This document shows, one piece after another, positions 46,040 to 63,593 of a stretch of DNA of 64,000 bases. The notes under the pieces were generated by a model that had not been told where the DNA came from, did no database searches, and saw nothing but the letters and a program-made list of their open reading frames with translations. This DNA comes from an uncultured Flavobacteriales bacterium (GTDB lineage: Bacteria > Bacteroidota > Bacteroidia > Flavobacteriales_G > Salibacteraceae), in contig CALCCE010000075.1 in the NCBI GenBank assembly GCA_937899835.1, positions 1 to 64,000 on the forward strand, read 5' to 3'. The position numbers and the translations under genes were made by a program. How positions within the stretch are numbered: the stretch's first letter is position 1; every line of letters starts with the position of its first letter.

Positions 46040-46696
46040 GCGGAAAATATAGTTCCACTCGCCCCAGCGCTTTATCTCCTTTTCGGTAGTCCATTCCCAC
46101 CCGTATTGACGGGCCAGGGCTGGTATGGTTTTCAGGTCGCAATCCTCGGAAAGGATCATGAATACCTCCCCTTCAGGAGCAACGTGCTGGTGCAGTTGAG
46201 GAAACAAACGGTGAAAATATTCGAATTCAGGGCCGCAGTAGAACGCCAACTCGGCTTCGTCGGCAGGGGCTTTCGGATAGTAGGGTGGGTTGATAAAAAG
46301 CAGGTCGAACTGACGATCGGACAAGTTTTCGAACAAATCGGAGTGCACCACTTCCAAAGGCAAGGCGGTGTGTTGAGCATTGAGCTTTAAATTGGCAATG
46401 GCCGCCTCGCTGAGGTCGGAAGCGGTAGCTCGGGCACCTTCGCGCGCAGCCAGCAAACTCACCATGCCACTGCCGGCTCCCAATTCTAAAAACCGACGGC
46501 CTTTCAGCGCTCCCTGCTCCAACAAAAAATCCATCAAAAGACGGGTGCTAATGAAAAATCCCGGGTGAAACACACCGGGTTGCACTTTCACCTGTAAGCC
46601 GTGCGACCGAAAGCTTCGGGTACGCGTGCTATAATAGCGGTACAATGGCTTAAGAAGCGGAAACAGCAACCGTTTGGAAAGCTGGCGCAGGTCCAT
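46016..46696 (-). CDS. HemK/PrmC-like SAM-dependent methyltransferase
   Basis: 226 residues. FLELGAGSGMVSLLAAREGA is the SAM-binding loop. LLFINPPYYP carries the NPPY active-site motif found in N-methylating enzymes acting on glutamine or on adenine/guanine exocyclic amines. The N-terminal 60 residues (LLFPLLKPLYRYYSTRTRSF; QVKVQPGVFHPGFFIST) lack the helical domain of PrmC, so it is not PrmC itself. Its start directly follows the stop of the B12-type radical SAM gene, with no spacing, so it is the last gene of that minus-strand operon. Target unknown. Confidence 0.82.
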   Translation of the reverse strand: MDLRQLSKRLLFPLLKPLYRYYSTRTRSFRSHGLQVKVQPGVFHPGFFISTRLLMDFLLEQGALKGRRFLELGAGSGMVSLLAAREGARATASDLSEAAIANLKLNAQHTALPLEVVHSDLFENLSDRQFDLLFINPPYYPKAPADEAELAFYCGPEFEYFHRLFPQLHQHVAPEGEVFMILSEDCDLKTIPALARQYGWEWTTEKEIKRWGEWNYIFRLQSVAVV

Positions 46697-48211: not shown

Positions 48212-48216
48212 AAGCA

Positions 48217-49296
48217 TTAAAAAGCACTGCAACAACGGGCACAGGCCGGAAGCAATCCGCCGGCTTTATTGAGGTCCTGCCGAAATTTGGCGATCACCTT
48301 GGAGTTCCAAAGCTCGGGCAGGCTTTCCTCGTAGAGGTTGCCAATGGTAAGGTTGTAGCACCGTCCGTGGGCCGGGATGACAGAACCATTGGACTTGATC
48401 ATGATGTTTCTAAAAATATCGTTGCACCGCCGACCGAAAAGTACTTCGGGGTGGTGGTAAAAAACGTGTAGTTGTTCCCGGGTTTCTACCGACGGTGAAA
48501 ACACAATGGAAAAGGGAAAGTCACGGCTTTTGAGCTCCTGCATCTCCTCGTACAACACATCGAGGTCCATGCGATCGAGGTTGATCTCTTCCATGTTGGA
48601 GGCCGTAGCAGGATACTTGCTGCCGTACAACAGGTTGTGATCGTCGGCTACTTGTTGCGGGGTGTAGTTGGTGTGCATGAAGCCAATTTGCTTCAGCGGC
48701 AAGTCTTTGAAAATTTCCACAAACTCCACCAAATGACCAATGTTCCATTCGGTCACCACGCAGTAGATGGAAATATCCGGCCGTTTCTCACTCGCCAACA
48801 GCGCATCGATGCCATCCATTGCCCGGCTAAACGAACTTTTGTGTCCCCGAATCTCATTGTGGATTTCCGGTGGCCCATCCAGCGAGATGAAAATATCGTT
48901 CAATCCGCCTTCAATCAGTCCGGGAGCTTGCCTTTTCAACGTGAGCGCGTTGGTGGTAATGGAAGTGTATAAACCCAAGGCATCGGCGTATTTCAGTGAT
49001 TCTACGAGCTTCGGATAAATCAGAGGCTCGGTAAAAGCATAGCCCAGTTTCACTTGCGGAAAGTGCCGCGCAGCCTGGTCCATCACTTTTTGCAACAACT
49101 CCAAGGGCATGTTGAGCGGTCGAGTGCCCACCAGATTGTTGAAGAAATTGCTTTGGTTGAAATCCACCCCCACATCACACATTTTACAGTGCAGGTTGCA
49201 AATGTTGTTTACACCCAGCACCAACCAGTCAGGACTAAACATGACTTTCCCCGGCAAGTAGCGGGTATTCGCAGCTTTTATGACTTTGGTGAGCAT
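48217..49296 (-). CDS. Radical SAM/SPASM-type protein
   Basis: 359 residues. NNICNLHCKMCDVG is the CxxxCxxC cluster motif. NDIFISLDGPPEIHNEIRGH and IYCVVTEWNIGHL are typical of the MoaA/SPASM group. The C-terminal CNDIFRNIMIKSNGSVIPAH, then GRCYNLTIGNLYEESLPELW and ACARCCSAF, provides six or so cysteines for an auxiliary iron-sulfur cluster. SPASM enzymes modify peptides, alcohols or sugars. No precursor peptide is visible nearby, so a sugar or lipid target is as likely. It precedes the B12-type radical SAM gene on the same transcript and follows a GT4 gene by 53 bases. Confidence 0.85.
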   Translation of the reverse strand: MLTKVIKAANTRYLPGKVMFSPDWLVLGVNNICNLHCKMCDVGVDFNQSNFFNNLVGTRPLNMPLELLQKVMDQAARHFPQVKLGYAFTEPLIYPKLVESLKYADALGLYTSITTNALTLKRQAPGLIEGGLNDIFISLDGPPEIHNEIRGHKSSFSRAMDGIDALLASEKRPDISIYCVVTEWNIGHLVEFVEIFKDLPLKQIGFMHTNYTPQQVADDHNLLYGSKYPATASNMEEINLDRMDLDVLYEEMQELKSRDFPFSIVFSPSVETREQLHVFYHHPEVLFGRRCNDIFRNIMIKSNGSVIPAHGRCYNLTIGNLYEESLPELWNSKVIAKFRQDLNKAGGLLPACARCCSAF

Positions 49297-49349
49297 GAAG
49301 AGACTATTGAATCAAATTTACAATTAATCCAAACAGTGTAGTCGTCAAA

Positions 49350-50411
49350 TTAAGCTTGAGAATACTGTTCCCAGTAATGAAATGCGATTTCATTGGCGGA
49401 ATCCAATGAAACCCGGGAAATGTCCATATCGGTGGACAGCACCTCCAGCAACTTTTGAGTGAATTGGCGTTGATCGTCCACCAAATGCCATTTGGGCAAT
49501 GCACGGGCCGTCCCCACTTTTTGCGATACCACCGTAGCACCTTGCCACAAAGCTTCGGCAAACACAAATCCGTAGGCTTCGTAGCGGGAAGGGTGGGCCA
49601 AAATTCTGGACCGGCCCAGGTAGTTCAGCACTTCGCTGCGCGGCACCCAACCCTTCACCGTCAGGTTTTTTTCGATGCCCAACGAACGGGCTTGTGCACG
49701 GAGTGGCTCTTCCTCAGGGCCTTCGCCCAAAATCACCACCTTTAATTTCGGATGGGTTTTGACCACCTCCGCCACTGCACCCACCAACCAATCGTATTGC
49801 TTCAATGGAATGAGCGAACCCACTCCTAAAATGTCGATGTCGCGTTCCTGCTGGTAGGCATGATCCTCCTGCGGCAAGTCATTGCCGTGGGGAATCGTGG
49901 CCGACACCCGTTCTCCGGTGGTTTTTTGAAACATTTCGGCCTGAAATTCACTTACCGCAACCAGGCGCGGATATTGCCGATCCACCCACTTCAGGTAGCG
50001 GTTGGTGGGCAGCACATCCTGCCCCATGAGGTTCACCAGGTGAGGAATGCGATTTTTCTTGGCCCATCGATTGCCCAGCATCGCGCATTCACTCAACCAA
50101 AAACTATGGATCAAATCCACCGGTTGTTTTTTATGGAGTTGCCGAAAGTAGCGCTCCGCTTTCCACCAGGTGCGCAAACGGCTGGGAAATCCGGTGTTGT
50201 TGCCCCCGCAAGGATATACATCCACGTGTTTCCACTGATAAGGCTGATCGTGATAAGGATACTGTAGCGCAATGACCGAAACCCGCAGTTTCGGATGCTT
50301 TCGGTGCAAGGCCGTGAGCAGATTTTGAAAGTAGGGCATGCAGTAGCCATCGTCCACATCACGGGCAAAACCAGGGGAAATGTACACGATATGGCTGTTT
50401 TCCTGCATCAA
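49350..50411 (-). CDS. Glycosyltransferase family 4
   Basis: 353 residues, two-domain GT-B. The N-terminal glycan-acceptor domain contains DLIHSFWLSECAMLGNRWAK and LVNLMGQDVLPTNRYLKW. The C-terminal nucleotide-sugar domain holds GVGSLIPLKQYDWLVGAVAE, KVVILGEGPEEEPL, KGWVPRSEVLNYL and the E-x7-E motif in YEAYGFVFAEALWQG. It is a retaining glycosyltransferase, most likely in surface glycan assembly. It heads the minus-strand run that continues with the SPASM radical SAM, the B12-type radical SAM and the methyltransferase. The frames on the other strand between 49455 and 50267 are shadows. Confidence 0.87.
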   Translation of the reverse strand: MMQENSHIVYISPGFARDVDDGYCMPYFQNLLTALHRKHPKLRVSVIALQYPYHDQPYQWKHVDVYPCGGNNTGFPSRLRTWWKAERYFRQLHKKQPVDLIHSFWLSECAMLGNRWAKKNRIPHLVNLMGQDVLPTNRYLKWVDRQYPRLVAVSEFQAEMFQKTTGERVSATIPHGNDLPQEDHAYQQERDIDILGVGSLIPLKQYDWLVGAVAEVVKTHPKLKVVILGEGPEEEPLRAQARSLGIEKNLTVKGWVPRSEVLNYLGRSRILAHPSRYEAYGFVFAEALWQGATVVSQKVGTARALPKWHLVDDQRQFTQKLLEVLSTDMDISRVSLDSANEIAFHYWEQYSQA

Positions 50412-50454
50412 AACGAGTTTGTAATGTTAAAAAATAAAACAGAATTTGGTCCAA

Positions 50455-52293
50455 ATGAAAGGCAATCCACAGATCATCCTCTTTTTCTCTACCCTGACTT
50501 TAGGTTGTATCGCATTTTCGCGCCAACTGGTCGACAATCACTTGGTTCCCAAGTTTGTCGCGCTAAGTGCCATTTTGTTAGTGGCTTGCCTCGCTTTCTT
50601 TTTCTTAAAAGATCGCAACCGCTCCAAATAAAAGGCACTAACGAAGAAATGAAGGCTGGCAGGTTGGTACGCCTGGAACCTGATTGCAGTCTCCTGGTCA
50701 CATTTACCAGAGGAAGGCCTGTTTCAGGCGCAAAAGGTGCTTTTGTTGTGGCTGGTGTTTCGATTGGCCCGAGGCTGGCTCGAGCACTACTCGGAAACAG
50801 GTATCACATGGCTGCTTCGTTCTATGATAGCCCTTGGTGTAATCACCTTGGTCGTCGTTTTTTTTGAAACCTCTAAAATTCCAAAACAGGGATTAGACGT
50901 CAACCGCAGCACCCTTTATTTGGTAACTGCTTTGTCTGGCCACAAAAACCTGGTCAGTGGCTTGATGCTTTTGCTGCTGCCATTTTGCCTGATGGGGTAT
51001 TTCCGAGATACAGGCAGTATGAAAAACGTTAGCCTCGCGGTTGGAATCACCTTATTTTTTGGAATCGCCTTCTTACAAACCCGTGCTGCCTGGTTGGCCA
51101 TTGTGGCAAGTGCTGCTTTTGGAGGCGCAGTATGGATGCTGGCAAAAGGCAAACAAAACCTCAGTTGGGTACAAAGTGCTTCGGTAATTGGGCTCATCTT
51201 TTTGGGCAGTAGCTACTTCGCCTTTGTTCACAATCCCGCACCACAGGTTCGCGACAATGCGGCACAACAAGCGGCTGGTCAAAGCGGTCGATCGGTGGAG
51301 GAGCGCCTCTTGATATGGCAGAAGACAGGCCAAATGATTCAGGAAAAACCTTTGCAAGGGGTGGGCAGTGGCGACTGGCGGATCGAATTTCCCAACATCG
51401 GAGTAGGTGGCATCAACCGCTTGGAGATCATGGTGTATGCTGTCAACCGGCCGCATAACGACTTTTTATGGGTATGGGCCGAAACTGGCCTCATTGGTCT
51501 GTTGCTGTACCTATCCATTTTTGGATTGGCCATTTGGCAAGCCTTGCAAGGCATGCGTGCGCAGGAAAATGTCAAAGAAAAAGCTGCCAACCTTTTCGTA
51601 GCCGCGGGGCTGGTGGCCTACATGAGCTTTGCCTTCCTCGATTTTCCCCTGGAAAGAATTGAGCATCAAGTGTTGTTGGGGCTCCTGCTGGCACTGGCAG
51701 TACACCTGGGCAAGCCCTTATCGAACAAGCTTCCGGTTCACGCATTTGCTGGGGCTCCTTTCTACGGCATTTCCGTGGTGCTCTTGGGCCTCAACCTCTA
51801 CATGGGCAGCGCTCGGTATTCCGGGGAAACACACTCCAAGCTCTTGGAAGGATTCAAAGAACAAAACAACTGGCCACAGGTCATTCAGGAAGCCAATGCC
51901 GCCAAATCCGATTGGTATAAGATCGAGCCCGGAGGCAATCCGATCGATTGGCAAATTGGCGTGGCCCATTTCAATTCGGGCAATATTCAAGCCTCCATCG
52001 AGGCGGGCCTTGCGGCCCTGGAAGTGACTCCCTACCGGCCGGAAGTATTGAACAACCTGGGTTCGGCCTATTTTCAATTGAAACAATTCGAAAAGGCCAT
52101 TCCCTTGTACCAGGAAGCTTTACGCGCCAATTCAGGATACGACGAGGCCATGTTCAATTTGGCGGCCGTGTACATCAATACCGATCGCCCTGAACTGGCA
52201 GTAGAATGGTTGAACCGCACCAAGGCGAACCCTGAGAAGAAGCAGCAGTTTTTGCAGATCATCGCCAACCGGCAAGCCAGTAAGTCACCGTAA
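50455..52293 (+). pseudogene. O-antigen ligase-like protein with TPR end, N-terminus interrupted
   Basis: A 58-residue frame (50455-50631; MKGNPQIILFFSTLTLGCIA, two TM helices) ends in TAA. The same reading frame reopens and runs to 52293, with a TGA at 50650-50652 between. The text after the TGA (WNLIAVSWSHLPEEGLFQAQ) is the usual O-antigen ligase segment behind the first helices, but no ATG precedes it, the first normal start being GTG 50737. So one gene of about 600 residues was likely split. The rest has about nine helices, the large periplasmic loop with NRPHNDFLWVWAETGLIG, and C-terminal TPR repeats (NLGSAYFQLKQFEKAIPLYQ). It overlaps the convergent SGNH gene by 9 bases. Confidence 0.7.
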
Positions 52294-53625
52294 AGGCTGC
52301 CATTGGGTAGAGAGCCAATCGGCAAAGGCACGGTTGCCTTCTCGGGTAAAATGCCCGTCTAACGTAAAATACAACTTCGAACGCTCCGCCCTTTTAGCCA
52401 AAGTGCTGTGGTTCCAATACACCGGCACACCTTCGAGTGGCTCCCAGAAAGACGGCTGGGCCTCCCATGGAACTTCCGGTGGAGCAGCCATGCCTAAGTC
52501 TTTTACTTCAAATGCTCGGTCTTTCGACGAAAGGTAGGTGCGGTGCGGCACCACCACCACCCGCAACGTTGCGCCCTGCTTTTCTGCCAACGCCTTTATC
52601 GCCTGTAGGTCGCGCATCACCTTTTCTCTGCCGGCACGTGCCCGTGAAGATTGTGGGTCGTTCATTTCCGCGTACCGCTCCGACTGCCGGATGGCACCGT
52701 CAACCACTCCCGGATTGAGTTTTCCCCGCTCAAAATGATGCTTTACCGGATTGGGAAAACGGGCATAGCGCTCTTGCTGTTCGGGAGAATAGTTGTCCAG
52801 CAAAAAAGTGGCTTCTACCAGCCAGGTTGGCGTAATTTTTAGGGGTTCTTCGCTGCTGGTTGCCGCCAAAGGGTTCAACAGGTTGGGCAACAATTTTTGC
52901 AACGGTTGCCAAATGTACACTGGCGGTTGAGCATCAAAAGCCACTCCTTCCCGCGGCTGTTCGTGCTCCATGGCCTGGAACAAATCGTTGCCTTGGTAAT
53001 AAGCCACCACCACCACATCGGGTTTTAATTCAGGCACGGCTAGTTGCGCCACCCGCAAAAAATCCTGGGTCCACCGCCCGCTCTGCCCAAAATTGAGCAC
53101 CTCAGTAGGCCCCTGCGTGCGGTTGAGGTCGGCCTCCCACAGCTTGAGCCAGGTGGCTTCGAGAGCTACACCCCAACCAAAGGTGAACGAATCGCCAAAC
53201 ACCAAAATGCGCTTTTTACCGGGCGTTTTTTTCATTGAGAATTCTCGATCGCGAATGCCCATGGAGTTGATGTGGGCGGTAACATCAAATTCAGAAGTCG
53301 TATACCGCACCGCACTGCCCGGTGGAAAAAGATAACCGGGATGATCTGGAGCCATCCAGCGATCAATGCCCAAGAGCAAGTAGCCACAAAGGAGCAAAGT
53401 AATGCCCGAGATCGACAGGTTGAGCAACCTCCGTGGCAAGGCTACTTTTAATCGACTCATGCCCAACAATACCAACCAAAGCACCCCCGTGAGGACATAC
53501 AGGTGCATTTCTATCCGGTCTGGAAAAGGAATTTCGAGCCATGAAAGCCACCAGGGAGAAGCGCTAAAAGCCAACAAGGCGATTAGAAAGAGTACAGGGC
53601 GGTTCGTTGCAGTGGCTGACTTCAC
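52285..53625 (-). CDS. Membrane-anchored SGNH hydrolase-like protein (second copy)
   Basis: 446 residues. About three N-terminal membrane helices (10-95) precede the hydrolase domain. ILVFGDSFTFGWGV has the nucleophile Ser. NFGQSGRWTQDF and YYQGNDLF supply the Gly and Asn positions, and LDGHFTREGN near the end is the Asp-x-His pair. It is probably an acyltransferase or esterase acting on surface glycans. The gene overlaps its upstream neighbour, a GT39-like protein, by 4 bases (ATGA). Its stop overlaps that of the convergent ligase gene. It shares fold and motif order with 44484-45500 but not close sequence identity. Confidence 0.8.
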   Translation of the reverse strand: MKSATATNRPVLFLIALLAFSASPWWLSWLEIPFPDRIEMHLYVLTGVLWLVLLGMSRLKVALPRRLLNLSISGITLLLCGYLLLGIDRWMAPDHPGYLFPPGSAVRYTTSEFDVTAHINSMGIRDREFSMKKTPGKKRILVFGDSFTFGWGVALEATWLKLWEADLNRTQGPTEVLNFGQSGRWTQDFLRVAQLAVPELKPDVVVVAYYQGNDLFQAMEHEQPREGVAFDAQPPVYIWQPLQKLLPNLLNPLAATSSEEPLKITPTWLVEATFLLDNYSPEQQERYARFPNPVKHHFERGKLNPGVVDGAIRQSERYAEMNDPQSSRARAGREKVMRDLQAIKALAEKQGATLRVVVVPHRTYLSSKDRAFEVKDLGMAAPPEVPWEAQPSFWEPLEGVPVYWNHSTLAKRAERSKLYFTLDGHFTREGNRAFADWLSTQWQPLR

Positions 53626-55061
53626 GGTTCTTTCCTTTCAATGCGGTAAATTACCCATCCTTCGGCCAGAGATTCGAGCGGACGTAGCTGATAGTGGGTA
53701 GTAAGGGTTTGCCAATTGGCCCACACATTTCCGGGTGCGTTTGCATTCCCAAATTTCTCCGGTTGAAACAACACCACCCCTCCCAGTGAAAACTCATCGA
53801 ACTTTTGTCGCCATAGGTTGTAAATCGGTGATTCCACATTATAAGTGTCAAGGGCCTGATCTACTGCAAAGGTATACACCGGCACCTCCTTTTCCCGTTC
53901 TTTGATGCGGTAGGCCAACAGCTGCTGCACCTGTTGATTGCTGTAAAATTGATGGTAACCACGCACCAACAGCGCCAATTGCACCATTACCACTCCGGTC
54001 AGCAATCCCCAACGCCAGACCTTATTGATGGAAAATCGGTTCCAGAGCCGCACAAAGCCGGGCGCCACCAAGAGCAGTACCAGCGGATAGCCCAGATAAA
54101 CTACCCTTGGATTTTGAAAGGGAAGTCCGGCCAGAAAAAGCACTTTCACCAGGAGGGCCAACAACAGCACCCAACGGTCGGGCAATTGCAGGTCGGTTCT
54201 TTTGAGAAAACCGATACTTAGCCAGGCCGACAACCCAAAGGTGGGCAGCCAGATTACGCCAAGGGTAGCCAACAAGTTGGGCAATGGAAATTGAAGTGTG
54301 CCGTCAGCGTTTTGAAACTCGGTCTGCCACCATTGCGTTGCGGACCACATTTGTAAAAAGCTGTTTTCGCTTACCCCTACCAACCCAGGCATTAGAAACA
54401 AGACGAGTAAGCTGAGCCCTCCACCACCTATGCCCAATAAAAAGAGGGCCGACCAATCTTTTTTCCGCAGCAATTCCACCGCCCACCCAATGCCCAGCAC
54501 TCCGATTACCAGCGCTGCCGGATAGCGGCTAAAAACCGCCAACAATGCCGCCAACACCGCCAGGATCAAGGCCCCAATCGAAGCACCCGAACGGTAGGCC
54601 AACACCGCCCGCCAAAAACCAATGATGCCCAACAGGCCCAGGAGATCGGACATGACCAATACGGAAGCGCGCAGCAGCAAGGGACTGCCCACGAAAAAGA
54701 GACCAATGAAAATGGAAAGTGCGGTAGTTGCTTCGGGTTGATAATACAGTGCTATTTGGCGCAGCCACCAGGCCGACAAGGTCAGAGCCAACACCGAAAC
54801 CAACTGCAAGGCCAAGGTTAGGTTGGGCACGATCACACTCAACAGTGCTCCGGTTGCCGGATAGTTGACTGGCCAATACGATTTGGTGGGAAAGGCCCCT
54901 TCTCCTAACAGTGCCTCACGAATCGCCTGGGCCATGCGCAGGTATTCGTGTGCATCTTGCCCATAGAGTCCATTGAACCCCATGATACGGCCAATCACCA
55001 GCAACAAAAGCGGCAAGATCACCAGAATAAAAGGGAACAATCGGCTGCGCATCGACTCCAT
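53622..55061 (-). CDS. GT39-like multi-pass membrane glycosyltransferase
   Basis: About 479 residues with ten or more hydrophobic helices. After the first helix the loop GLYGQDAHEYLRMAQAI carries the acidic catalytic-type residues of the GT-C fold (ArnT/PMT-like enzymes that take sugar from a polyprenyl phosphate). A soluble C-terminal part of about 110 residues follows (YAVDQALDTYNVE-like region, RLESLAEGWVIYRI-like end, read approximately). It is coupled to the SGNH gene (4-base overlap), and both belong to the glycan locus. The start is uncertain: MESMRSRLF at 55061 is chosen over 55148, which adds a polar stretch. Confidence 0.72.
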   Translation of the reverse strand: MESMRSRLFPFILVILPLLLLVIGRIMGFNGLYGQDAHEYLRMAQAIREALLGEGAFPTKSYWPVNYPATGALLSVIVPNLTLALQLVSVLALTLSAWWLRQIALYYQPEATTALSIFIGLFFVGSPLLLRASVLVMSDLLGLLGIIGFWRAVLAYRSGASIGALILAVLAALLAVFSRYPAALVIGVLGIGWAVELLRKKDWSALFLLGIGGGGLSLLVLFLMPGLVGVSENSFLQMWSATQWWQTEFQNADGTLQFPLPNLLATLGVIWLPTFGLSAWLSIGFLKRTDLQLPDRWVLLLALLVKVLFLAGLPFQNPRVVYLGYPLVLLLVAPGFVRLWNRFSINKVWRWGLLTGVVMVQLALLVRGYHQFYSNQQVQQLLAYRIKEREKEVPVYTFAVDQALDTYNVESPIYNLWRQKFDEFSLGGVVLFQPEKFGNANAPGNVWANWQTLTTHYQLRPLESLAEGWVIYRIERKEP

Positions 55062-55190
55062 GGCTTTGGGGAGGGAAAATAACCATATTGACCGAACTGC
55101 ATGCTGTTGATCAAAAAAGTACGACCTCCTGTCGGAGATTTGAATCATTTGGTCTAAAGAATCTTACCTTAGTAGCGTTTGCGCGTTTGA

Positions 55191-56084
55191 ATGAGCGATA
55201 TGAACCGAGACGCAGTACCCATTCACGATTTTAGCCGGGACGATGATTCCTCCATTCCCTTCAAACTGGAAGTGGTGGAACATCAGAACCACTACAACAC
55301 CACAGAAGCCCACCGACACAACTACTACGAAATTTTTCTTTTTGCCGGCGGTGGTGGCCGCCACGTTATTGATTTTAAATCCTTCAACATTGCCGATCAA
55401 AGCGTGCACTTTCTGTCCCCCGGGCAAATTCACGAAGTAGAGCGTTCTCCGGGTTCGCACGGTTGGGTGATCAAATTTTCGAGGGATTTTTTCTACCTCA
55501 ACCTGGAGAACAAAAACGTATTGTTCGACCTGCCTTTTCTCCACAACCAGACCTCCAACCCTACTCTGGCGCTGAAAGACAAAGAATTTGAAGAAATCAA
55601 GTCGCTATTTACCAGCATCGATCGGGAGTATGACGCCAACTCGGAATTCAAAGCAGACATTTTGAGGTCGTACCTCAACATTCTTTTGCTGAAGTGCAAC
55701 AGCCTGTTTGAGACCCTGGGTGCTAACCAGGTTGCCGACGACAAAGCTTCGGGAAAAGTGGTGCACCGTTTTCGCAAGCTGGTGGAGGAAAACTTCACCC
55801 AAAAGCACCAGGTGGGCGAATACGCCGAAATGCTTTCGGTGAGCGCGGGCTACCTGAACGATGCCACCAAAAAAGTGTTCCATAAAAATGCCAGTCAACT
55901 CATTCAAGACCGCATTATTTTGGAGGTGAAGCGCCTGCTGATGCACAGCACCCTCAACAACAAAGAGATTGCCTACTTCCTCAATTTCAACGACCCTTCT
56001 TATTTCAGCCGCTTTGTGAAAAAACAAACCGGCCTTTCTCCCAACGCCTTACGCGATAAGATTCAAGACAGCTTTCGGGTCTGA
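55191..56084 (+). CDS. AraC-family transcriptional regulator
   Basis: 297 residues. An N-terminal cupin-like sensing domain (about 20-150; EAHRHNYYEIFLFAGGGGRH, HFLSPGQIHEVERSPGSHGW) is followed by the two-helix-turn-helix AraC domain (about 195-290; VGEYAEMLSVSAGYLNDATK and EIAYFLNFNDPSYFSRFVKK). It probably binds a small molecule and controls nearby or distant genes. The divergent glycan genes (53622-55061 and 52285-53625) start 130 bases away and are candidate targets, which is inference. ATG 55191 or 55200 are possible starts. Confidence 0.88.
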   Translation: MSDMNRDAVPIHDFSRDDDSSIPFKLEVVEHQNHYNTTEAHRHNYYEIFLFAGGGGRHVIDFKSFNIADQSVHFLSPGQIHEVERSPGSHGWVIKFSRDFFYLNLENKNVLFDLPFLHNQTSNPTLALKDKEFEEIKSLFTSIDREYDANSEFKADILRSYLNILLLKCNSLFETLGANQVADDKASGKVVHRFRKLVEENFTQKHQVGEYAEMLSVSAGYLNDATKKVFHKNASQLIQDRIILEVKRLLMHSTLNNKEIAYFLNFNDPSYFSRFVKKQTGLSPNALRDKIQDSFRV

Positions 56085-56125
56085 TGCCTTTCGCATAGTG
56101 CCGGGATTTTCGGTACTTTGGGGGT

Positions 56126-56692
56126 ATGGAAGAGCACGATTTCCGCGAGTCTGACTTTTTCGAGAAAACAGAATCTTCGGTTCCCATTCAAATCCTGATT
56201 CGCTTCAACATGGTCTGCATCATGGCCGCGCTGGTTGGCGGTATCATGTGGGGTGCCATCGCTTTGAGCACGGGCTACGAAATTTCGTGGATGGGCATAG
56301 GCATTGGAGCGCTTTGCGGCTACATTGCTTCGCTTTACCTGGGTATTTTTCGCTCGGTTTTATTGCCATTTTTGGCTACTTCTTACGCTTTAGCGGGATG
56401 GGTACTCGGCAAATATTTCATTTACCTCTACTTCTTCGGGAAAATTCAAAGCATCGACGGGCAAACGGAAGTTACTTTGATCGACCTGCTTCGGTATTAT
56501 ATGCTTGAAGTATCTATCAACGAGTTTCCTTTGTTTCTTAGAGACTATGGTTCCTGGCTTCAAATCCATGATTTATTTTTTGCAGTAGTGACCGCCAGCG
56601 CAGCCTGGTATTTCAGTTACATCAACCTCCACAAGTCCATCAAAGCAAGAAAAAGCCAACGAACCCGCAGAATCAAACGATTATTTGATTGA
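56126..56692 (+). CDS. Hypothetical membrane protein
   Basis: 188 residues, no family recognised. A polar N-terminus (1-24) is followed by four or five hydrophobic segments (about 28-48, 53-72, 78-100, and a further pair near 140-165), ending in a strongly basic tail (SIKARKSQRTRRIKRLFD). Such a tail normally stays in the cytoplasm. A one-base-short -7 box (TACTTTG) lies about 12 bases upstream. It follows the AraC gene by 41 bases in the same direction and may be co-transcribed with it. Confidence 0.65.
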   Translation: MEEHDFRESDFFEKTESSVPIQILIRFNMVCIMAALVGGIMWGAIALSTGYEISWMGIGIGALCGYIASLYLGIFRSVLLPFLATSYALAGWVLGKYFIYLYFFGKIQSIDGQTEVTLIDLLRYYMLEVSINEFPLFLRDYGSWLQIHDLFFAVVTASAAWYFSYINLHKSIKARKSQRTRRIKRLFD

Positions 56693-56740
56693 TCGGCACC
56701 TCAGATTGTGGAATTTTAACGTTTGAGGACCTACAAACCA

Positions 56741-57631
56741 ATGACCATGCCCTCCTCCCGAATTGCTGCATTGATAGTACTGGTCGTCTTGTTTTGGAAG
56801 CTCCCCCACGCCCAGGCCCAACAAGACTCCGTATTTCCACAGGTTTACATGTTCGAAGCCGACCGAATCGCCAAACAAGCGGTGGGCAAAATTGTACGCT
56901 ATACGGGCCTGATGCCCAATTTCACCGTGATTAGCCGGGACGTCAAAACGGCCACCGCCTACATCAAAGGCGGCAATCGTTACATTGCCTACAATCCTGA
57001 ATTCATTTTTCGACTGGGCAACCAAAGTCAAACCGACTGGGCTGCAGTAAGTGTGTTGGCCCACGAAATCGGGCACCACCTGGCCGGGCATACATTGCGT
57101 CCACGAAGCACCAGCCCGGGCGATGAATTGGCCGCAGATCATTTCTCCGGCTTTATCCTTTACCAAATGGGCGCTAGTTTGGTCGAAACGCAAGCCGCCC
57201 TCACGGCCATTGGTGGCGAATTGGACACCCTTCGCCACCCACCGCCCACCGCAAGGCTTTCGGCCATTTCCAACGGTTGGCGCGAGGCGCAAACCCTCGA
57301 CAACCTTCCTGCCTATGGCCCCGACTCCGATCCGGTGGACAAGGATACGGTAACGGTAGTGTATCAATGCCAATTTCGCAACGACGAAAACCTGTATTTC
57401 ATCAACGATAAAGACGAAATTTTGTGGTATGACAATTCCGGCAAGGCAATTGTAATAGGGACCAAACAACCGTCGAAAAGCCGCAGCTACGCCTGGATGT
57501 ATCACTACAACTATTTTGTTTTTGGAGTAGATGGCAATGGAACCATTTGGGAACAAACCACTTTTGGCTCCGTGCATCCAGTGGGCAAAGTGACGCTAAT
57601 CGGCAGTGAAGTTGTTGATAAAAACCAATAA
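56741..57631 (+). CDS. Exported M48-like metalloprotease with HExxH motif
   Basis: 296 residues. Signal peptide about 1-28 (ends PHAQAQ). The zinc site VLAHEIGHHLAGHT (His108, Glu109, His112) is followed by SPGDELAADHFSGF, in which Glu129 fits the third ligand of the M48 (ELxAD) pattern. Unlike most M48 proteins there is no N-terminal membrane domain and the catalytic part is short. The last 90 residues (TVTVVYQCQFRNDENLYFIN; KDEILWYDNSG) form a separate beta-rich domain. Probably a periplasmic or surface protease. ATG 56741 is chosen. TTG 56723 is unlikely. Confidence 0.78.
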   Translation: MTMPSSRIAALIVLVVLFWKLPHAQAQQDSVFPQVYMFEADRIAKQAVGKIVRYTGLMPNFTVISRDVKTATAYIKGGNRYIAYNPEFIFRLGNQSQTDWAAVSVLAHEIGHHLAGHTLRPRSTSPGDELAADHFSGFILYQMGASLVETQAALTAIGGELDTLRHPPPTARLSAISNGWREAQTLDNLPAYGPDSDPVDKDTVTVVYQCQFRNDENLYFINDKDEILWYDNSGKAIVIGTKQPSKSRSYAWMYHYNYFVFGVDGNGTIWEQTTFGSVHPVGKVTLIGSEVVDKNQ

Positions 57632-57660
57632 GACTGCGAAAGCTCCGCAAGCAGTTTTTC

Positions 57661-57668
57661 TAATTTTG
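57661..57668 (+). promoter_or_regulatory. -7 promoter box TAATTTTG for the DUF1573 gene
   Basis: Exact TAnnTTTG match 18 bases before the ATG at 57687. It argues for that start over the in-frame upstream codon at 57606. Confidence 0.55.
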
Positions 57669-57686
57669 AACCAAATCAGATTGATC

Positions 57687-58073
57687 ATGAAGCGCTTTTT
57701 TGTCCTTGCCTCTTTTGTATTTGCTACCCTTAGTCTCTCGGCTCAAGGCATCCTCGAATTTTCTACCACTACCATTGTGGCAGATACCATTGTGACCGGC
57801 GATACTGCTCAAAAAGTGTTTCATTTTACCAATACGGGCGACAAGCCCCTGACCATTCGCAACGTAACGGCCCTGAATGCCGGCTGCAAAGTGAAGTTTA
57901 CCAAAGGGGCCATTCAGCCCGGTGGCCAAGGCAAGGTAACGGTGGATTTCAGCGAAGTTTCTTCGACCAAGGGGCAAAAAAAGATTTCGTTCAAAGTGTA
58001 CTCAACGGCCAAAAACAAGGCGGTGGCCCTGCACATTGAATCCTTCTTTAAAGCGGCCAACCCTACTTATTGA
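57687..58073 (+). CDS. DUF1573 domain secreted protein
   Basis: 128 residues. Signal peptide about 1-20 (MKRFFVLASFVFATLSLSAQ). The mature part is a single Ig-like DUF1573 domain: KVFHFTNTGDKPLTIRNVTA, then AGCKVKFTKGAIQPGGQGKV and ISFKVYSTAKNKAVALHIES. The family normally has a CGC motif at the loop, here reduced to NAGCKV. Such proteins are frequent, exported and of unknown role in Bacteroidota, often thought to bind other envelope proteins. It stands alone with its own promoter. Confidence 0.85.
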   Translation: MKRFFVLASFVFATLSLSAQGILEFSTTTIVADTIVTGDTAQKVFHFTNTGDKPLTIRNVTALNAGCKVKFTKGAIQPGGQGKVTVDFSEVSSTKGQKKISFKVYSTAKNKAVALHIESFFKAANPTY

Positions 58074-58104: not shown

Positions 58105-58923
58105 TTACTTCTCCCGCTCGGGAAAAGGTTTGAGCACCTGTACCCAGTAAAACGGGCTTTCTCTTCTGCCCAAACTACGTACGATCTGGTTCTTAACCGA
58201 AGAGGGATTGAACAGCACTTCAGGATTCCAGGTTTTCAACTGGGCTAAGGTGTGGTGGTGATAGGTTTTGGCCATTTCCGGCACGCCCAATTGGGCATAG
58301 TGCTTTTGAGTCCGTTGCTGTGCTGATTTTATTTTAGAAGCCCGGTAGAAGGGGCTATCGAGAATGTGTAACTCTCCTCCCGGGCGCAACAACTGAAACA
58401 TACGCTCTACAAAGCGGGGCAAATTCTCAAAATATTGAATCGCACTGTTGACGACAATCACATCCAGGGTGGGGTGGGTGGGCCAATCGTTGAAAATATC
58501 GGCATACACAAATTCGAGGTTCGGAGCCTTAAAAAGGCGGGCTGCCTGCTCCAATTCACCTTGGTTGAGGTCTACGCCCCAAACCGTTTTTCCTTCTAAC
58601 CCAGCCAACCTTCGCGAGAACCATCCGTTTCCACAACCCAAATCCATGATCCGATTCAGGTCGGGACTCATGGCGATCAGCTGCAACATGCGCACCGAAC
58701 TGCGCACCCTTAGCCTCCATTCGTTGCTGTGGTGTTCTTTGGTATGGGCATAGGGCAATTTCTTAACGACTTCGTCGGGATACCAACGTCCCTCTTTTTC
58801 TCGGGCCTGGCGGTAGTAGGCCTCAAATTCGGGAGATTGTTTGGTTAAAATAGTCACCCCGTTGTGGCGCTGTGCCTGGCTCAGGGTGGTTTCGGGCTGT
58901 AGATTAACTTGGGTGGTGTTCAA
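58105..58923 (-). CDS. Class I SAM-dependent methyltransferase (last gene of the radical SAM operon)
   Basis: 272 residues. IMDLGCGNGWFSRRLAGLEG is the SAM-binding loop, VWGVDLNQGELEQAARLF the acidic loop, and NSAIQYFENLPRFVERMFQL the post-motif. A Trp/His-rich N-terminal part (RWYPDEVVKKLPYAHTKEHH) precedes it. It is in the group that methylates or otherwise transfers to small molecules and sugars. Its start overlaps the stop of the upstream B12 radical SAM by 20 bases. It is the last of five overlapping minus-strand genes. Substrate unknown. Confidence 0.82.
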   Translation of the reverse strand: MNTTQVNLQPETTLSQAQRHNGVTILTKQSPEFEAYYRQAREKEGRWYPDEVVKKLPYAHTKEHHSNEWRLRVRSSVRMLQLIAMSPDLNRIMDLGCGNGWFSRRLAGLEGKTVWGVDLNQGELEQAARLFKAPNLEFVYADIFNDWPTHPTLDVIVVNSAIQYFENLPRFVERMFQLLRPGGELHILDSPFYRASKIKSAQQRTQKHYAQLGVPEMAKTYHHHTLAQLKTWNPEVLFNPSSVKNQIVRSLGRRESPFYWVQVLKPFPEREK

Positions 58924-60337
58924 ACTCCTTGGGGCTTTGACTACGGTTACGGTAATACCACATTCCTATTTTGGCTGCGGTAGACCTGGCTTTGTAATTG
59001 AAGGCCTGCCAACTCAATGCTCGTCGGGCGAGGCGCTGTTTGTGAAAATTCACTTCATTGGTGACCCGGCGAACGGCATAATCGTAATAGGGTCGCGGGT
59101 ACGTCCGTTGAAAATCAATGTCGCGATCGGTGGACGTTTCCCAGGGCAAATCGGCCACTTGAAGCCCCTCTACCTCTTGAAACAGTTCAGTGCCTCGAAT
59201 GGGATAGGCGACTGTGATGGTAAATTGATCAGGGTTAGAGGTTTTCAAGTGATGAATGGTTTCTTCAATGTCTTCTTCGGTTTCTCCGGGATATCCGAGC
59301 ATGATAAAGGTACCCGCCTGAATGCCCTTTTTCCGCGAAAGGCGAATCATCTCACGTACTTTATGTACACTCACCCGGCGGTCCATCAGGTCGATCACTT
59401 TTTGTGAGCCACTTTCTGCACCGATCCAAACCCGAAAGCAACCGCTTTCCTGAAGTAAGTTCACGACTCTTTCGTTCATCTTGTCGGCACGGGTGATGCA
59501 CTCATAAGAGATTTTCACGTCTCTTGCCTTGAGCTCGTCCCGAAATTGCTCCAGCCATCGGTAGTTTACGGTGAACACATCATCTACAAACCAAATGGTA
59601 TCTGGGTTGTATTTTCTCTGTATGTCTTCCAGTTCGTCTACCACATTTTTGGGTTTACGCCTGCGGTAACTCAAACCGTATACTGCCCGGCTGCACCATT
59701 TGCAAGTATACGGACAACCACGCATAGTGCTCACCGAAAGGGCCGATTGCCCGTGGTGCGACTTCCAGGCATCCAAATAAAGGTGCAGGTTAATCTTATC
59801 GCGGTTGGGCACGGGCAACTCATTGATTTCCCGGATTTTAGTCCGTTCTCCGTTCTGCTGAAAAACGTCCTTATCGTCAATGTAGGCAATGCCGTCAATG
59901 GAAGCGTAATCGGCTTCCGGGCCTTTTTCAATGTTTTGAACGAGTTCAAGAAAGCTCTCCTCACCTTCACCAATGACCAAAAAGCTGGCTCCATTTCGCA
60001 GTAGATTTTCCGCATTGTAACGCACATCCGGACCTCCTAAAATCACCTTGGTATGGTCCAATTCCCGGTGCTCCCGTATGAATTGAATGAGGTTCAACAC
60101 GTTGAGCTTGGTCATGAGGTTGACGTAAAACGCCACTACCTCCGGTTTTTCTTCCAGCAAATAAGTTTTGAGTTTTTCCTGGCTCGAAAAAGTGGTGTCG
60201 AAAACCTCATGGTTGTAACCGTGCTGGTCCAGGTAAGCCGAAACATAAAGAATTCCCAACGGAGGATAAGGACGCATAATTAGCTTCTCCTTGGGGTCCT
60301 CTAAGAGGAAATAACCGTGGGTTAATACGATCTTCAT
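58904..60337 (-). CDS. B12-binding-type radical SAM protein (operon copy 2)
   Basis: 477 residues. The N-terminal cobalamin-binding-like domain reads IVLTHGYFLLEDPKEKLIMR, PYPPLGILYVSAYLDQHGY, then VVAFYVNLMTKLNVLN and KVILGGPDVRYNAENLLRNG. The radical SAM core has RGCPYTCKWCSRAVYGLSYR, WIGAESGSQKVIDLMDRR and GTFIMLGYPGETEEDIEETI. The C-terminus is basic and aromatic. This layout is shared by BchE-like cyclases and C- or P-methylases. It overlaps the methyltransferase start by 20 bases downstream and the other methyltransferase by 4 bases upstream (ATGA). Substrate unknown. Confidence 0.87.
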   Translation of the reverse strand: MKIVLTHGYFLLEDPKEKLIMRPYPPLGILYVSAYLDQHGYNHEVFDTTFSSQEKLKTYLLEEKPEVVAFYVNLMTKLNVLNLIQFIREHRELDHTKVILGGPDVRYNAENLLRNGASFLVIGEGEESFLELVQNIEKGPEADYASIDGIAYIDDKDVFQQNGERTKIREINELPVPNRDKINLHLYLDAWKSHHGQSALSVSTMRGCPYTCKWCSRAVYGLSYRRRKPKNVVDELEDIQRKYNPDTIWFVDDVFTVNYRWLEQFRDELKARDVKISYECITRADKMNERVVNLLQESGCFRVWIGAESGSQKVIDLMDRRVSVHKVREMIRLSRKKGIQAGTFIMLGYPGETEEDIEETIHHLKTSNPDQFTITVAYPIRGTELFQEVEGLQVADLPWETSTDRDIDFQRTYPRPYYDYAVRRVTNEVNFHKQRLARRALSWQAFNYKARSTAAKIGMWYYRNRSQSPKEFEHHPS

Positions 60338-61140
60338 GCTGCCTTCCGAAATTCAATCAAGTAATGATCTGACCAGGAACACCGCTTTCCGTGGCGGGTC
60401 CAATTCAAATCCCAACGCTCCAAACGATCCAACAAAGCGGGGCGAGAACCGAAATATGGTTCGGTGTAGGAAGGGGGAACAAAAAAACCCACTGCCTGCC
60501 GCCCTTTCTCTTGCCAGCCATGCCGGGCAAAAATAGCGGATAATCGCCGGGGAGCATGATACCATGTCGGTACCCGTTCTGACTCCACCTGCACCGGCAC
60601 TGCCTTGGCGGTATTCCGCCTAAATGACTTTTTTAAATCTAGCCTGCGTAGAAAAAACAGGCTTTCCATCATACAAAATCGGGGCATCACCACTAAAATG
60701 CACGAGCCACCCTGGGTGGTGACGGCCGCCAAATGACGGGCCAGTTGATCCAAATCCTTTTCATCAATGCAATTGAGGCCACCAAAATCGGAAAACACCA
60801 AATCGAAACGCAGTTGAGACAAGTTCTCTGGCGTGATGTCGGCAAAAGACAGGTGCTGGGTGCGCACCCGGTCCGATAGCTGTCGGGCAGCGGCTTTTCT
60901 TCGGGTCACGTGCAGCATGTTCTCCGCCTGATCGGTGGCCAACACTTTGTGGCCCTTTTCAGCCATGTGAAGTGCATCTTCGCCCGTTCCGCAGTTCAAC
61001 TCGAGTATTTGCAGCCCTTGTCGCGCCTGCAACCAGTTGTCGAGGTAACGCCATACAACTTTGCGTTGCTTTTTGCCCACTTCGGAGTGGGTAAAGGTAG
61101 CATCGTAGTCTGCTGCAATCTGTTCGAAAGCCATCTCCAT
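60334..61140 (-). CDS. Class I SAM-dependent methyltransferase (between the two radical SAM genes)
   Basis: 268 residues. ILELNCGTGEDALHMAEKGH is the SAM loop, and DLVFSDFGGLNCIDEKDLDQ the active-site region. Its asparagine (NCGTG) replaces the usual glycine of GCGTG. IQQIA-like N-terminus EQIAADYDATFTHSEVGKKQ is typical of ubiquinone/menaquinone- or sugar-type methyltransferases. The C-terminal PPSYTEPYFGSRPALLDRLE is a tail not seen in the shortest members. Start and the upstream radical SAM stop overlap by one base (TAATG), and its end overlaps the next radical SAM start by 4. Confidence 0.83.
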   Translation of the reverse strand: MEMAFEQIAADYDATFTHSEVGKKQRKVVWRYLDNWLQARQGLQILELNCGTGEDALHMAEKGHKVLATDQAENMLHVTRRKAAARQLSDRVRTQHLSFADITPENLSQLRFDLVFSDFGGLNCIDEKDLDQLARHLAAVTTQGGSCILVVMPRFCMMESLFFLRRLDLKKSFRRNTAKAVPVQVESERVPTWYHAPRRLSAIFARHGWQEKGRQAVGFFVPPSYTEPYFGSRPALLDRLERWDLNWTRHGKRCSWSDHYLIEFRKAA

Positions 61141-62600
61141 TACTTGACCTGTGCCAATCGTTCGAGTTTACGTGCATCTACCAGGGCTGCGGGAGCATAA
61201 TAGGCAGTAGCCAACATCGAGCGCAATTGAGGAGCCGACCAATTGTTGGGCTTCAAAATACCCTTCATCGCCAAAAGGCCTTGTTTCCTCCGATAAACTT
61301 TGTGAACGTAGCGGTGGAGGCGCTTGTAGTATTCACTCGAGTAGGTGCCTTCAAACATCATGTCGAGATCATCCGAGTCGGTCCAGTTGGCTTTGGCGCT
61401 CAGTTCTTCTTTTACAATTTCGTAGAATTTGGTGCCGGGAAGCGGGTAAGAAACCGAAATGCCGATGTTGTCGGGCATGAGTTCCAGCACCATATCAATG
61501 GTTTTGCGAATGTCTTCCTGGTTTTCGCCGAGATAACCGAATTGCAGGAAAAAGCACACCCGAATGCCTTTTTTCTTCAGGAGGCGGGTAGCCTCATAAA
61601 TCTGCTCCAGCTTGGTGCCTTTGTCCATCGCATCCAAAATCTTCTGAGAACCACTCTCCGCTCCTATCCACACTTCGTGCAATCCGGATTCTCCTAAGGC
61701 ATCGATAGTATCTTCTTTCACCAGCAGGTCGGCCCGTGATTGAATTTTGTAGCGGAAACGCAGGTCTGTTTCGTTCACTTTGTTTCTGAACTGCTGGACC
61801 CACTGAGGTTTCAAGCCAAAAATATCGTCACACATCCAAAAATGGTCGGGCTGGTAATTTTCCAGCAACCACGCAATTTCATGCAACACATGATCCGGCG
61901 AACGGCTGTTGTAGCGGTTGCCGTAAATGGGCTTGGCGCACCAATTGCATTTGAAGGGGCACCCGCGTGTGGTGGCCACATTCAGGGAAAAGTAGCCGTT
62001 ACCTTCAATCCAAATTTGTCGATAAGGTTCCACATCCACCAGATCCCAAGCGGCCATCGGTAAGTTATCGAGGTCGCGCAACACCGGGCGTTTCGGCGTT
62101 TTCACGGTTTTGCCGGCTTTGCGGTAGGCCAATCCTGAAACCCGATCTACGGATGAAGTACCGGAGTTCAAGGTATCGATCAACTCCTGTAGGGTAGCTT
62201 CCCCTTCTCCCAAAATAATGTAGTCTGCCCCTTCATCGAGGTACTGCTCAAAATGGTCGGTAGAATCGGAACTGGAAACAATCACGGGAATGCCCCGTGC
62301 CTTGGCCATTTGCGCCATGCGAAAAGCTGCCTCACGCATGTTGGTCAGGCACATTTTGGTCAGGTAATTGAACCCATCGTCATACAGTACCAGGTAATTG
62401 GGCTGAAACGTTTCGAGCCGTGGCAAAAGGCCGGTTTCATCTTCTACCAGGCAAGTATCGAACAAAGCTACTTCGTGCCCCATTTCGCGCATTTGTGCGG
62501 CCGCAGTAATGGTCCCCAAAGGCGGATAGGGCTGCTTGGTCGCCCATTGTTTGGGATCGAAGCGGTAGAAGTACGAATGTGAAAACAGCAGCTTACTCAT
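61140..62600 (-). CDS. B12-binding-type radical SAM protein (operon copy 1)
   Basis: 486 residues. N-terminal cobalamin-binding-like domain: KQPYPPLGTITAAAQMREMG, HEVALFDTCLVEDETGLLPR, then GADYIILGEGEATLQELI. The core has TTRGCPFKCNWCAKPIYGNR (CxxxCxxC), WIGAESGSQKILDAMDKGT and VCFFLQFGYLGENQEDIRKT. Architecture is the same as its neighbour at 58904, but the sequences differ widely, so they are paralogues with separate substrates or steps. Overlaps the upstream nucleotidyltransferase gene by 8 bases and the downstream methyltransferase by 1. Substrate unknown. Confidence 0.87.
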   Translation of the reverse strand: MSKLLFSHSYFYRFDPKQWATKQPYPPLGTITAAAQMREMGHEVALFDTCLVEDETGLLPRLETFQPNYLVLYDDGFNYLTKMCLTNMREAAFRMAQMAKARGIPVIVSSSDSTDHFEQYLDEGADYIILGEGEATLQELIDTLNSGTSSVDRVSGLAYRKAGKTVKTPKRPVLRDLDNLPMAAWDLVDVEPYRQIWIEGNGYFSLNVATTRGCPFKCNWCAKPIYGNRYNSRSPDHVLHEIAWLLENYQPDHFWMCDDIFGLKPQWVQQFRNKVNETDLRFRYKIQSRADLLVKEDTIDALGESGLHEVWIGAESGSQKILDAMDKGTKLEQIYEATRLLKKKGIRVCFFLQFGYLGENQEDIRKTIDMVLELMPDNIGISVSYPLPGTKFYEIVKEELSAKANWTDSDDLDMMFEGTYSSEYYKRLHRYVHKVYRRKQGLLAMKGILKPNNWSAPQLRSMLATAYYAPAALVDARKLERLAQVK

Positions 62601-63549
62601 AGGCCATCGAAATACTCAAACCATGTTCCCTTTCAAATTGTTTGACGCGCTGCACATAAGCGTCTAAAACCCGGCGTTGAAAGTTGCCGGGATGGTGTTT
62701 GGAAACGTAGCTGCGTGATTTCATTGCCACATCAAAATCCTCTGGTCGAAACTCGGTAAACTTCTTTTTCCAATGCCCCACAGTGATGCGCATGCAATAG
62801 CTATCCAAGGCATCGCCAATCGGTGTATTGAGGATGCCTTCCAGCAGCCGTTTCAAGCCTTTTGGCCGGTCGGCAACCACACCATCGGCCGAACGTGCCG
62901 ATCCGTTTGGGTAATGGTTACGGTACCATTCGTTGGCCGATAAAAACGCCTGAAAGCCTTTTGATCCGCAGGTGGGTACCAGGGTTACCACTTCGGTAGC
63001 CGTGAAGAGGTTACGCTCCTCTACCTCCAAATGATCTAAATCGATAAAATAGTTGAGACAGAAATGCTGGTAAGAATTGAGTAGGAAGATTTTTTTGTAA
63101 GCAATGAGCAGGGTTCTACACAACCACAAGCGTTTGGGCTTGGTGATGATGAAGAAATCGATGTCAGTAGTTTCGTCCATGTAGTCTTTGCTCAGTGAAC
63201 CCGACAGGGAGACTACCCGAACGTAGGGAAAAGAAAAGATGAGGCGGGATACCCGGTGAGCTTTGCTCATTTTATCCCGGGCCATCTGGTTGCCTTTCCG
63301 CCTTTTTTCCTCTTGTTGAGGGGCATTATCAAGCGAATAGAATTCCCCAAATTGGAATACCTGCTTTGCCGCTACCAAATCATCCAGAGCCGAATGGACC
63401 TCGGCCTTAGTGATGTTGGGCAACACGAGTCTGGCATGCACCTCTTCCCGGGTAAGTGGATATTGGAAAAGCCCGGTATAGGCCAAAGCCAATACTACGC
63501 CTTCACTAATAGGACTAAGCCCCATCAGAGTTTTCGCAGGTTGAAACAT
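62593..63549 (-). CDS. Nucleotidyltransferase-fold protein, first gene of the operon
   Basis: About 318 residues from MFQPAKTLMGLSPISEGV. A winged-helix-like N-terminal part (about 10-75; ALAYTGLFQYPLTREEVHAR, AEVHSALDDLVAAKQVFQFG) is followed by the DNA-polymerase-beta-like transferase signature: VVSLSGSLSKDYMDETTDID and FFIITKPK (GS-x-D-x-D pattern). After it comes a mostly helical part. It could add a nucleotide to a protein, RNA or sugar, or act as a regulator, and the substrate is not visible. The ORF extends to 63588, but an exact -7 box covers that start, so 63549 is used. It overlaps the first radical SAM gene by 8 bases. Confidence 0.75.
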   Translation of the reverse strand: MFQPAKTLMGLSPISEGVVLALAYTGLFQYPLTREEVHARLVLPNITKAEVHSALDDLVAAKQVFQFGEFYSLDNAPQQEEKRRKGNQMARDKMSKAHRVSRLIFSFPYVRVVSLSGSLSKDYMDETTDIDFFIITKPKRLWLCRTLLIAYKKIFLLNSYQHFCLNYFIDLDHLEVEERNLFTATEVVTLVPTCGSKGFQAFLSANEWYRNHYPNGSARSADGVVADRPKGLKRLLEGILNTPIGDALDSYCMRITVGHWKKKFTEFRPEDFDVAMKSRSYVSKHHPGNFQRRVLDAYVQRVKQFEREHGLSISMAYE

Positions 63550-63585: not shown

Positions 63586-63593
63586 CAAATCTA
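63586..63593 (-). promoter_or_regulatory. -7 promoter box TAGATTTG for the radical SAM operon
   Basis: Exact TAnnTTTG on the minus strand, 36 bases upstream of the ATG at 63549. It marks the start of the five-gene unit 63549 to 58105. Confidence 0.5.

Follow-up and report, generated by a model that had tools for sequence, protein, structure and literature searches.

A nucleotidyltransferase and B12-type radical SAM gene module linked to surface-glycan genes in Bacteroidota

What might be made by five overlapping genes that encode a nucleotidyltransferase, two B12-type radical SAM enzymes and two methyltransferases? The genes occupy positions 58105–63549 of the minus strand in a 64,000-nucleotide stretch of DNA (hereafter the window; contig CALCCE010000075.1, assembly GCA_937899835.1) from an uncultured Flavobacteriales bacterium of the Salibacteraceae, and they are single-copy in the genome searched for further copies. 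From upstream to downstream they comprise NT (62593–63549), a winged-helix and Pol-beta-type nucleotidyltransferase with an ATG start and the motifs SGSLSK...DIDF and FCxNYF; rS1 (61140–62600), a radical SAM enzyme with a B12-binding domain and the cysteine motif CPFKCNWC; MT1 (60334–61140), a class I SAM methyltransferase with an FGGLNC motif; rS2 (58904–60337), a second B12-binding radical SAM enzyme (CPYTCKWC); and MT2 (58105–58923), a class I SAM methyltransferase with an N-terminal extension and a TTG start. Our analysis indicates that the five genes probably make up the core of a module that tailors cell-surface glycans (exopolysaccharide or lipid-linked oligosaccharide) during their assembly in Bacteroidota and Ignavibacteria. 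The presence and linkage of the genes are certain but the identity of the product is not; the enzyme set most likely puts unusual chemical groups on surface-coat sugars.

Conservation and co-inheritance of the core

The rS1 protein was searched against one genome per GTDB species, and the best 80 loci were taken. All of them belong to the Bacteroidota, broadly defined to include Ignavibacteria, with rS1 identities of 59–67%. The order NT–rS1–MT1–(rS2)–(MT2) recurs across these loci, rather than the genes being scattered among unrelated neighbours, and tblastn with the five window proteins revealed the full NT–rS1–MT1–rS2–MT2 set, in the same order and on the same strand, in many of them. Chitinophagaceae-type loci carry NT on the opposite strand, with its adjacency kept. 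Since Louvain clustering broke rS1 into several clusters, rS1 was assigned in the locus counts by BLAST identity. Among the 65 loci with enough flanking sequence, NT was found in 62, MT1 in 65, rS2 in 46 and MT2 in 33, and both NT and MT1 are present in all 57 loci with at least 9 kb downstream. By comparison, rS2 and MT2 are uncoupled: 23 of the 65 loci carry both, 23 only rS2, 10 only MT2 and 9 neither. Because rS2 and MT2 are present or lost independently, the core consists of NT, rS1 and MT1, which are near-invariant, whereas rS2 and MT2 are optional; for the same reason, the alternating radical SAM–methyltransferase pair that an earlier, sequence-only note on this DNA had emphasized is not the conserved unit.

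Co-occurrence was examined in 395 genomes drawn evenly from the phylum (E ≤ 1e-60 for rS1 and E ≤ 1e-50 for NT). Twenty-seven of the 395 genomes carry rS1, and the set of genomes with NT is identical, the two genes never lying more than 4.5 kb apart. The identical distribution and the conserved order uphold the proposal of the earlier note that the five genes form a real system. True rS2 was found in 7 genomes, all within the 27 rS1 carriers, two extra matches being cross-matches to rS1. A third B12-binding radical SAM gene, rS3, located at 46697–48235 on the minus strand of the window and found by searching the genome of origin, is present in 17 of the 395 genomes, every one of them among the 27; where the 21-kb slice around the module lacks rS3, 11 of 21 genomes have it elsewhere, several about 15–50 kb away on the same contig. 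Furthermore, the pairwise distances of NT, MT1, rS2, MT2 and rS3 track those of rS1 with r of 0.69–0.92, to which shared ancestry contributes; the correlation with rS1 is 0.84 for NT, 0.92 for rS2 and 0.90 for MT2, and 0 of 999 permutations were as high.

Two further observations concern the NT–rS1 pair. At L088:2205–3282 (minus strand, genome G018), multi-frame rS1-like fragments lie beside a weakly matching NT remnant that is interrupted by a stop and, by eye, resemble a decayed module. In genome G289, NT is split between C54:1431134–1431655 and C49:8752–9117, one part lying close to rS3 and the other close to rS1, which reflects either an assembly break or an insertion inside NT. Plasmid carriage of the module was rejected, as a plasmid collection contained no NT match.

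Folds of the enzymes and fusion of NT to GT4 glycosyltransferases

Domain searches place Radical_SAM and B12-binding domains in rS1 and rS2, and class I methyltransferase domains in MT1 and MT2; the Pfam B12-binding matches of rS1 and rS3 fall slightly under the gathering cut-off. The combination that defines B12-type radical SAM enzymes, an N-terminal B12-binding domain and a radical SAM barrel with CxxxCxxC, was found, and the three cysteines are invariant in the rS1, rS2 and rS3 families. rS1 and rS2 are paralogues with 32% identity, the rS1 family alignment has a mean column identity of 70%, and rS3 (CPFTCSFC) is 64–71% identical to its partners elsewhere. rS1 has the full B12-type radical SAM fold: most of its predicted structure (predicted local distance difference test score, pLDDT, 83) can be aligned with TsrM, MgmA, AprD4, CysS, OxsB and TokK, with E values down to 1e-20. 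AprD4 (6fd2) and MgmA (9ccb, PMC11796369) are the closest solved sequences to the rS1 and rS2 profiles and are among the best fold matches of rS1. AprD4 acts on an aminosugar, and its structure is bound to a sugar-containing substrate; the identity to AprD4 and MgmA in the fold alignment is about 18%, and the genomic surroundings of rS1 do not resemble those of apramycin or methyl-coenzyme M reductase genes. With AprD4 as a counter-case, this fold need not imply methylation.

The named subfamilies offer no closer assignment. BchE and BchM form a known pair of B12-type radical SAM enzyme and methyltransferase. Both rS1 and rS2 have BchE as their highest-scoring NCBIfam model, and the nearest equivalog models of MT1 include BchM; by comparison, rS1 and rS2 reach about one third of the BchE cut-off (156–170 versus 481 bits), and porphyrin genes are absent near the operon. 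The best model for rS3 is HpnJ, with a likewise low score (111 versus 578 bits). BchE, HpnJ, PhpK, HpnR and TIGR04295 were all rejected as assignments for rS1–rS3, their scores being far under the cut-offs. By their names, TIGR04295 (B12_rSAM_oligo) and TIGR04157 (glyco_rSAM_CFB) denote radical SAM proteins, curated earlier, that are tied to oligosaccharide or glycosyltransferase genes, whereas rS1–rS3 reach 36–85 of the 400 bits required. NT, rS1, rS2 and rS3 all fall outside the NCBIfam models, and a description of the locus was not found in the open-licence full text of PubMed Central, a search that could miss subscription papers. Older model names such as TIGR04295 already hint at B12-type radical SAM enzymes near polysaccharide genes. 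More distinct proteins of this type lie in other module loci (L058:16749–18176, cluster 18; L014:9602–11002, cluster 45), and some loci may hold four or more.

NT shows the GS...DxD active-site signature of Pol-beta nucleotidyltransferases on a Pol-beta fold. S116, G117, D129, D131, C164, N166 and Y167 are invariant in the family alignment; the strand 163–170, where a third catalytic carboxylate would be expected in a Pol-beta enzyme, contains the last three of these residues, an acid there is not invariant, and E178 is near-invariant. As a single sequence NT scores under the Pfam cut-off for the nucleotidyltransferase domain, which the family and the structure make clear: NTP_transf_2 is matched by 18 of 26 family members, and the predicted structure (pLDDT 92) matches MntA, aminoglycoside nucleotidyltransferases, KNTase, AadA and HalB with modest E values of 0.01–0.1, in addition to winged-helix domains. 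A PDB sequence search with NT gave no match below E 0.1. NT shares the fold and the G-S...DxD signature with MntA, ANT(4')/KNTase, AadA and LinB, the fold E values being weak, and is distinct from them in its added winged helix, its invariant C-x-N-Y motif and its fusions to GT4 glycosyltransferases. Fom1, the nucleotidyltransferase of the fosfomycin pathway, belongs to a different fold family from NT.

The fusions provide the strongest clue to a role in the sugar coat. One GT4–NT fusion (L087:8743–10731, genome G393) lies directly upstream of rS1, and its GT4 part scores 62 against a cut-off of 400 in the comparison with the TIGR04295 and TIGR04157 families. Three more (L084:5919–7925, L085:6154–8124 and L086:4843–7239) occur in three genomes without a strong rS1 and encode proteins of 656–798 amino acids, in which the GT4 glycosyltransferase forms the N-terminal half and NT the C-terminal domain. 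Fused and free NT share the invariant S-G, D-x-D, C-x-N-Y, P-N and K..H residues. The L084 fusion is accompanied by an NAD-epimerase, an APH-type kinase and an MT1-like methyltransferase, the latter aligning with MT1 over its full length with FGGLN kept (hhalign E 1.8e-24; a control methyltransferase gave E 2e-8 and was covered in part); by eye, L086 contains look-alikes of this neighbour set. GT4–NT is an apparently undescribed domain architecture in genomes of the Bacteroidota phylum.

NT could instead control rS1 or a glycosyltransferase, either as a regulator or by modifying proteins (MntA/GlnE-like AMPylation), without performing a step of the pathway itself, a possibility that we take seriously but doubt. 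It concerns NT alone and would agree with a glycan pathway. The nearest folds include the MNT antitoxin MntA, a protein AMPylator, and the N-terminus of NT is a winged helix. By comparison, aminoglycoside nucleotidyltransferases, which act on sugar hydroxyls, are equally near by fold, NT recurs in cis-fusion to GT4 and always with rS1, and no HEPN-type partner was seen.

Operon layout and the wider cluster in the window

All five open reading frames (ORFs) were recovered at the positions given above, with junction overlaps of 8 (NT/rS1), 1 (rS1/MT1), 4 (MT1/rS2) and 20 bases (rS2/MT2), as the earlier note had described. The 20-base overlap relies on the TTG start of MT2, the sole plausible start before a conserved NGV motif. 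In relatives the junctions are mostly short or overlapping, and overlaps were counted at 45 of 67 NT–rS1, 56 of 72 rS1–MT1, 33 of 46 MT1–rS2 and 20 of 21 rS2–MT2 junctions, which are upper bounds, as the gene caller uses the earliest start. The MT1–rS2 overlap is mostly exactly 4 bases, of the ATGA type; otherwise exact lengths differ between loci. The tight packing is not due to chance. The overlaps fit translational coupling, rather than the fixed stoichiometry or complex that had been read from them, and exact overlap lengths were rejected as functional signals, since they are not conserved among relatives.

Upstream of the operon, a Bacteroidota-type -7-like box (TAGATTTG) is located at 63586–63593 on the minus strand; an alternative TTG-started frame of NT extends to 63588 but collides with this box. 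The box noted earlier is real, and such boxes are enriched ahead of NT in relatives (23 of 65, versus 8.2 expected). Taken alone it is weak evidence, because TAnnTTTG occurs in the window at chance level (43 occurrences versus 40 expected).

The system extends beyond the five genes to which it had seemed limited. Neighbourhood clustering links PMT-like, GT4, rS3 and MTS genes to the core, and a second minus-strand group at 46016–55148 contains them, with a SPASM radical SAM gene as a further linked partner; most genes of this wider cluster recur in relatives. Nearest to the core lies a PMT-like membrane glycosyltransferase (53622–55148, minus strand, cluster 9), which directly follows MT2 in several relatives and whose relative in L029 matches PMT_2. 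It is followed by a membrane-anchored SGNH/GDSL hydrolase (52285–53625, minus strand), analogous genes coming after MT2 in Kordia-type loci, and by a plus-strand Wzy_C/O-antigen ligase-type polymerase with a TPR tail (50737–52293); Wzy_C also occurs upstream of NT in L021, L056 and L061. The remaining minus-strand genes are a recurrent GT4 glycosyltransferase (49350–50411, cluster 6), the radical SAM/SPASM protein (48217–49296), which overlaps rS3, and an MTS-domain methyltransferase (46016–46696), which directly follows rS3 here and in most relatives. Other SPASM-type radical SAM proteins form cluster 27 and recur beside rS3 and MTS. The two minus-strand groups are separated by four unrelated-looking plus-strand genes at 55191–58073, encoding an AraC-type regulator, an unassigned membrane protein, an M48-like peptidase and a DUF1573 protein; the AraC-type gene could regulate the cluster. 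In relatives, a PMT-like or GT4 gene comes directly after the core.

Among side observations, Flavobacteriaceae loci often carry, right after rS2 or one gene further on, a recurrent lipoprotein-like protein of about 389 amino acids with a CxxCH motif (CMWCH) and no Pfam match (cluster 14, e.g., L039:15139–16308). A Fic/DOC-family (SoFic-like) protein adenylyltransferase at 30703–31962 on the plus strand of the window is unrelated to the operon.

Proposed glycan tailoring, alternative products and meaning

The recurrent neighbours of the module, as assigned by Pfam, are GT2, GT4, GT9, GT87, PMT_2, Wzy_C, Bac_transf, ATP-binding cassette (ABC) transporter and FkbM methyltransferase genes. The gene types of surface-polysaccharide loci were all found, namely glycosyltransferases, a polymerase or ligase, a flippase or transporter and an initiating sugar transferase, not every type being present in each locus. 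Among the sugar, lipid or cofactor substrates proposed earlier for stepwise modification, a sugar is best supported, by this glycan context and the GT4–NT fusion, and a lipid or cofactor less so.

The scheme that we infer, in its substrates and reactions as in the order of its steps, would begin on the cytoplasmic side, where glycosyltransferases, one at times fused to NT, build a sugar intermediate. NT would move a nucleotidyl group onto this intermediate or onto a sugar precursor, and rS1, joined by rS2 and rS3 where present, would then alter an unactivated carbon, most likely by C-methylation, although a radical rearrangement or a dehydration of the AprD4 kind is possible. MT1, MT2 and the MTS enzyme would methylate oxygen or carboxyl positions, and PMT/GT87 enzymes, an ABC or Wzx flippase and Wzy_C proteins would export and finish the glycan. 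In the fosfomycin pathway, the B12-dependent radical SAM enzyme Fom3 C-methylates a cytidylylated substrate (PMC8158854), which makes tagging by NT and methylation by rS1 a concrete hypothesis; NT, which strictly co-occurs with rS1, may tag the sugar for it. The Fom1/Fom3 pair, in which the nucleotidyl group precedes C-methylation (PMC8158854), serves as the working model, while its substrate is a phosphonate and it lacks the glycosyltransferase context of the NT/rS1 loci. A bolder version, in which a temporary nucleotide placed on the growing surface glycan or sugar by the glycosyltransferase-linked nucleotidyltransferase steers one B12-dependent radical SAM enzyme after another to unactivated sugar carbons, which they methylate or rearrange ahead of export, is one that we rate as unlikely.

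In favour of the assignment to a surface glycan, a recurrent glycosyltransferase, sugar-1-phosphate transferase or polymerase is present in 49 of the 60 loci of at least 15 kb, a count that lacks a matched baseline of random Bacteroidota loci. Several points weigh against this assignment. The other 11 loci have no clustered glycosyltransferase within 10 kb; either their genes for glycan synthesis are located elsewhere or the module makes something other than a glycan. The core also has no conserved gene for nucleotide-sugar synthesis. In addition, the nearest named radical SAM families include HpnJ, HpnR and a ladderane-type lipid enzyme, all far below cut-off, as would suit a module that modifies a lipid or isoprenoid (e.g., a polyprenyl carrier or membrane lipid) and adjoins glycan genes through a shared carrier; the PMT, GT87 and ABC partners do handle lipid-linked intermediates. 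We regard this alternative as quite unlikely, since NT occurs in fusion with a GT4 sugar transferase and the linked neighbours include no recurrent lipid-biosynthesis genes, the fatty-acid gene pair beside Chitinophagaceae loci resembling ordinary housekeeping. Hopanoid, ladderane, bacteriochlorophyll and phosphonate pathways were rejected, as the recurrent neighbourhood contains no matching partner genes.

A maturation cluster for a ribosomally synthesized and post-translationally modified peptide (RiPP) or a cofactor, with several B12-type radical SAM enzymes, is very improbable. The moderate scores for the RiPP-maturation families ApyD and rSAM_ocin_1 and the SPASM radical SAM protein close by would fit it, but the recurrent neighbours are glycosyltransferases and include neither a conserved small ORF for a precursor nor a peptidase or peptide transporter cluster, and a RiPP cluster was rejected for want of the precursor. 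No supporting point was found for the idea that five unrelated enzymes of housekeeping type lie together by chance; it is refuted by the co-occurrence and the conserved order and can be practically dismissed.

If the glycan-tailoring proposal is true, this patchily distributed locus, present in 27 of the 395 sampled genomes, gives surface sugars radical-installed groups through up to three B12-dependent radical SAM enzymes. The strict NT–rS1 pairing and the GT4–NT fusion lead to a testable two-enzyme hypothesis and to a new family of glycan-associated nucleotidyltransferases, and the surface coats of marine and soil Bacteroidota would depend on vitamin B12.

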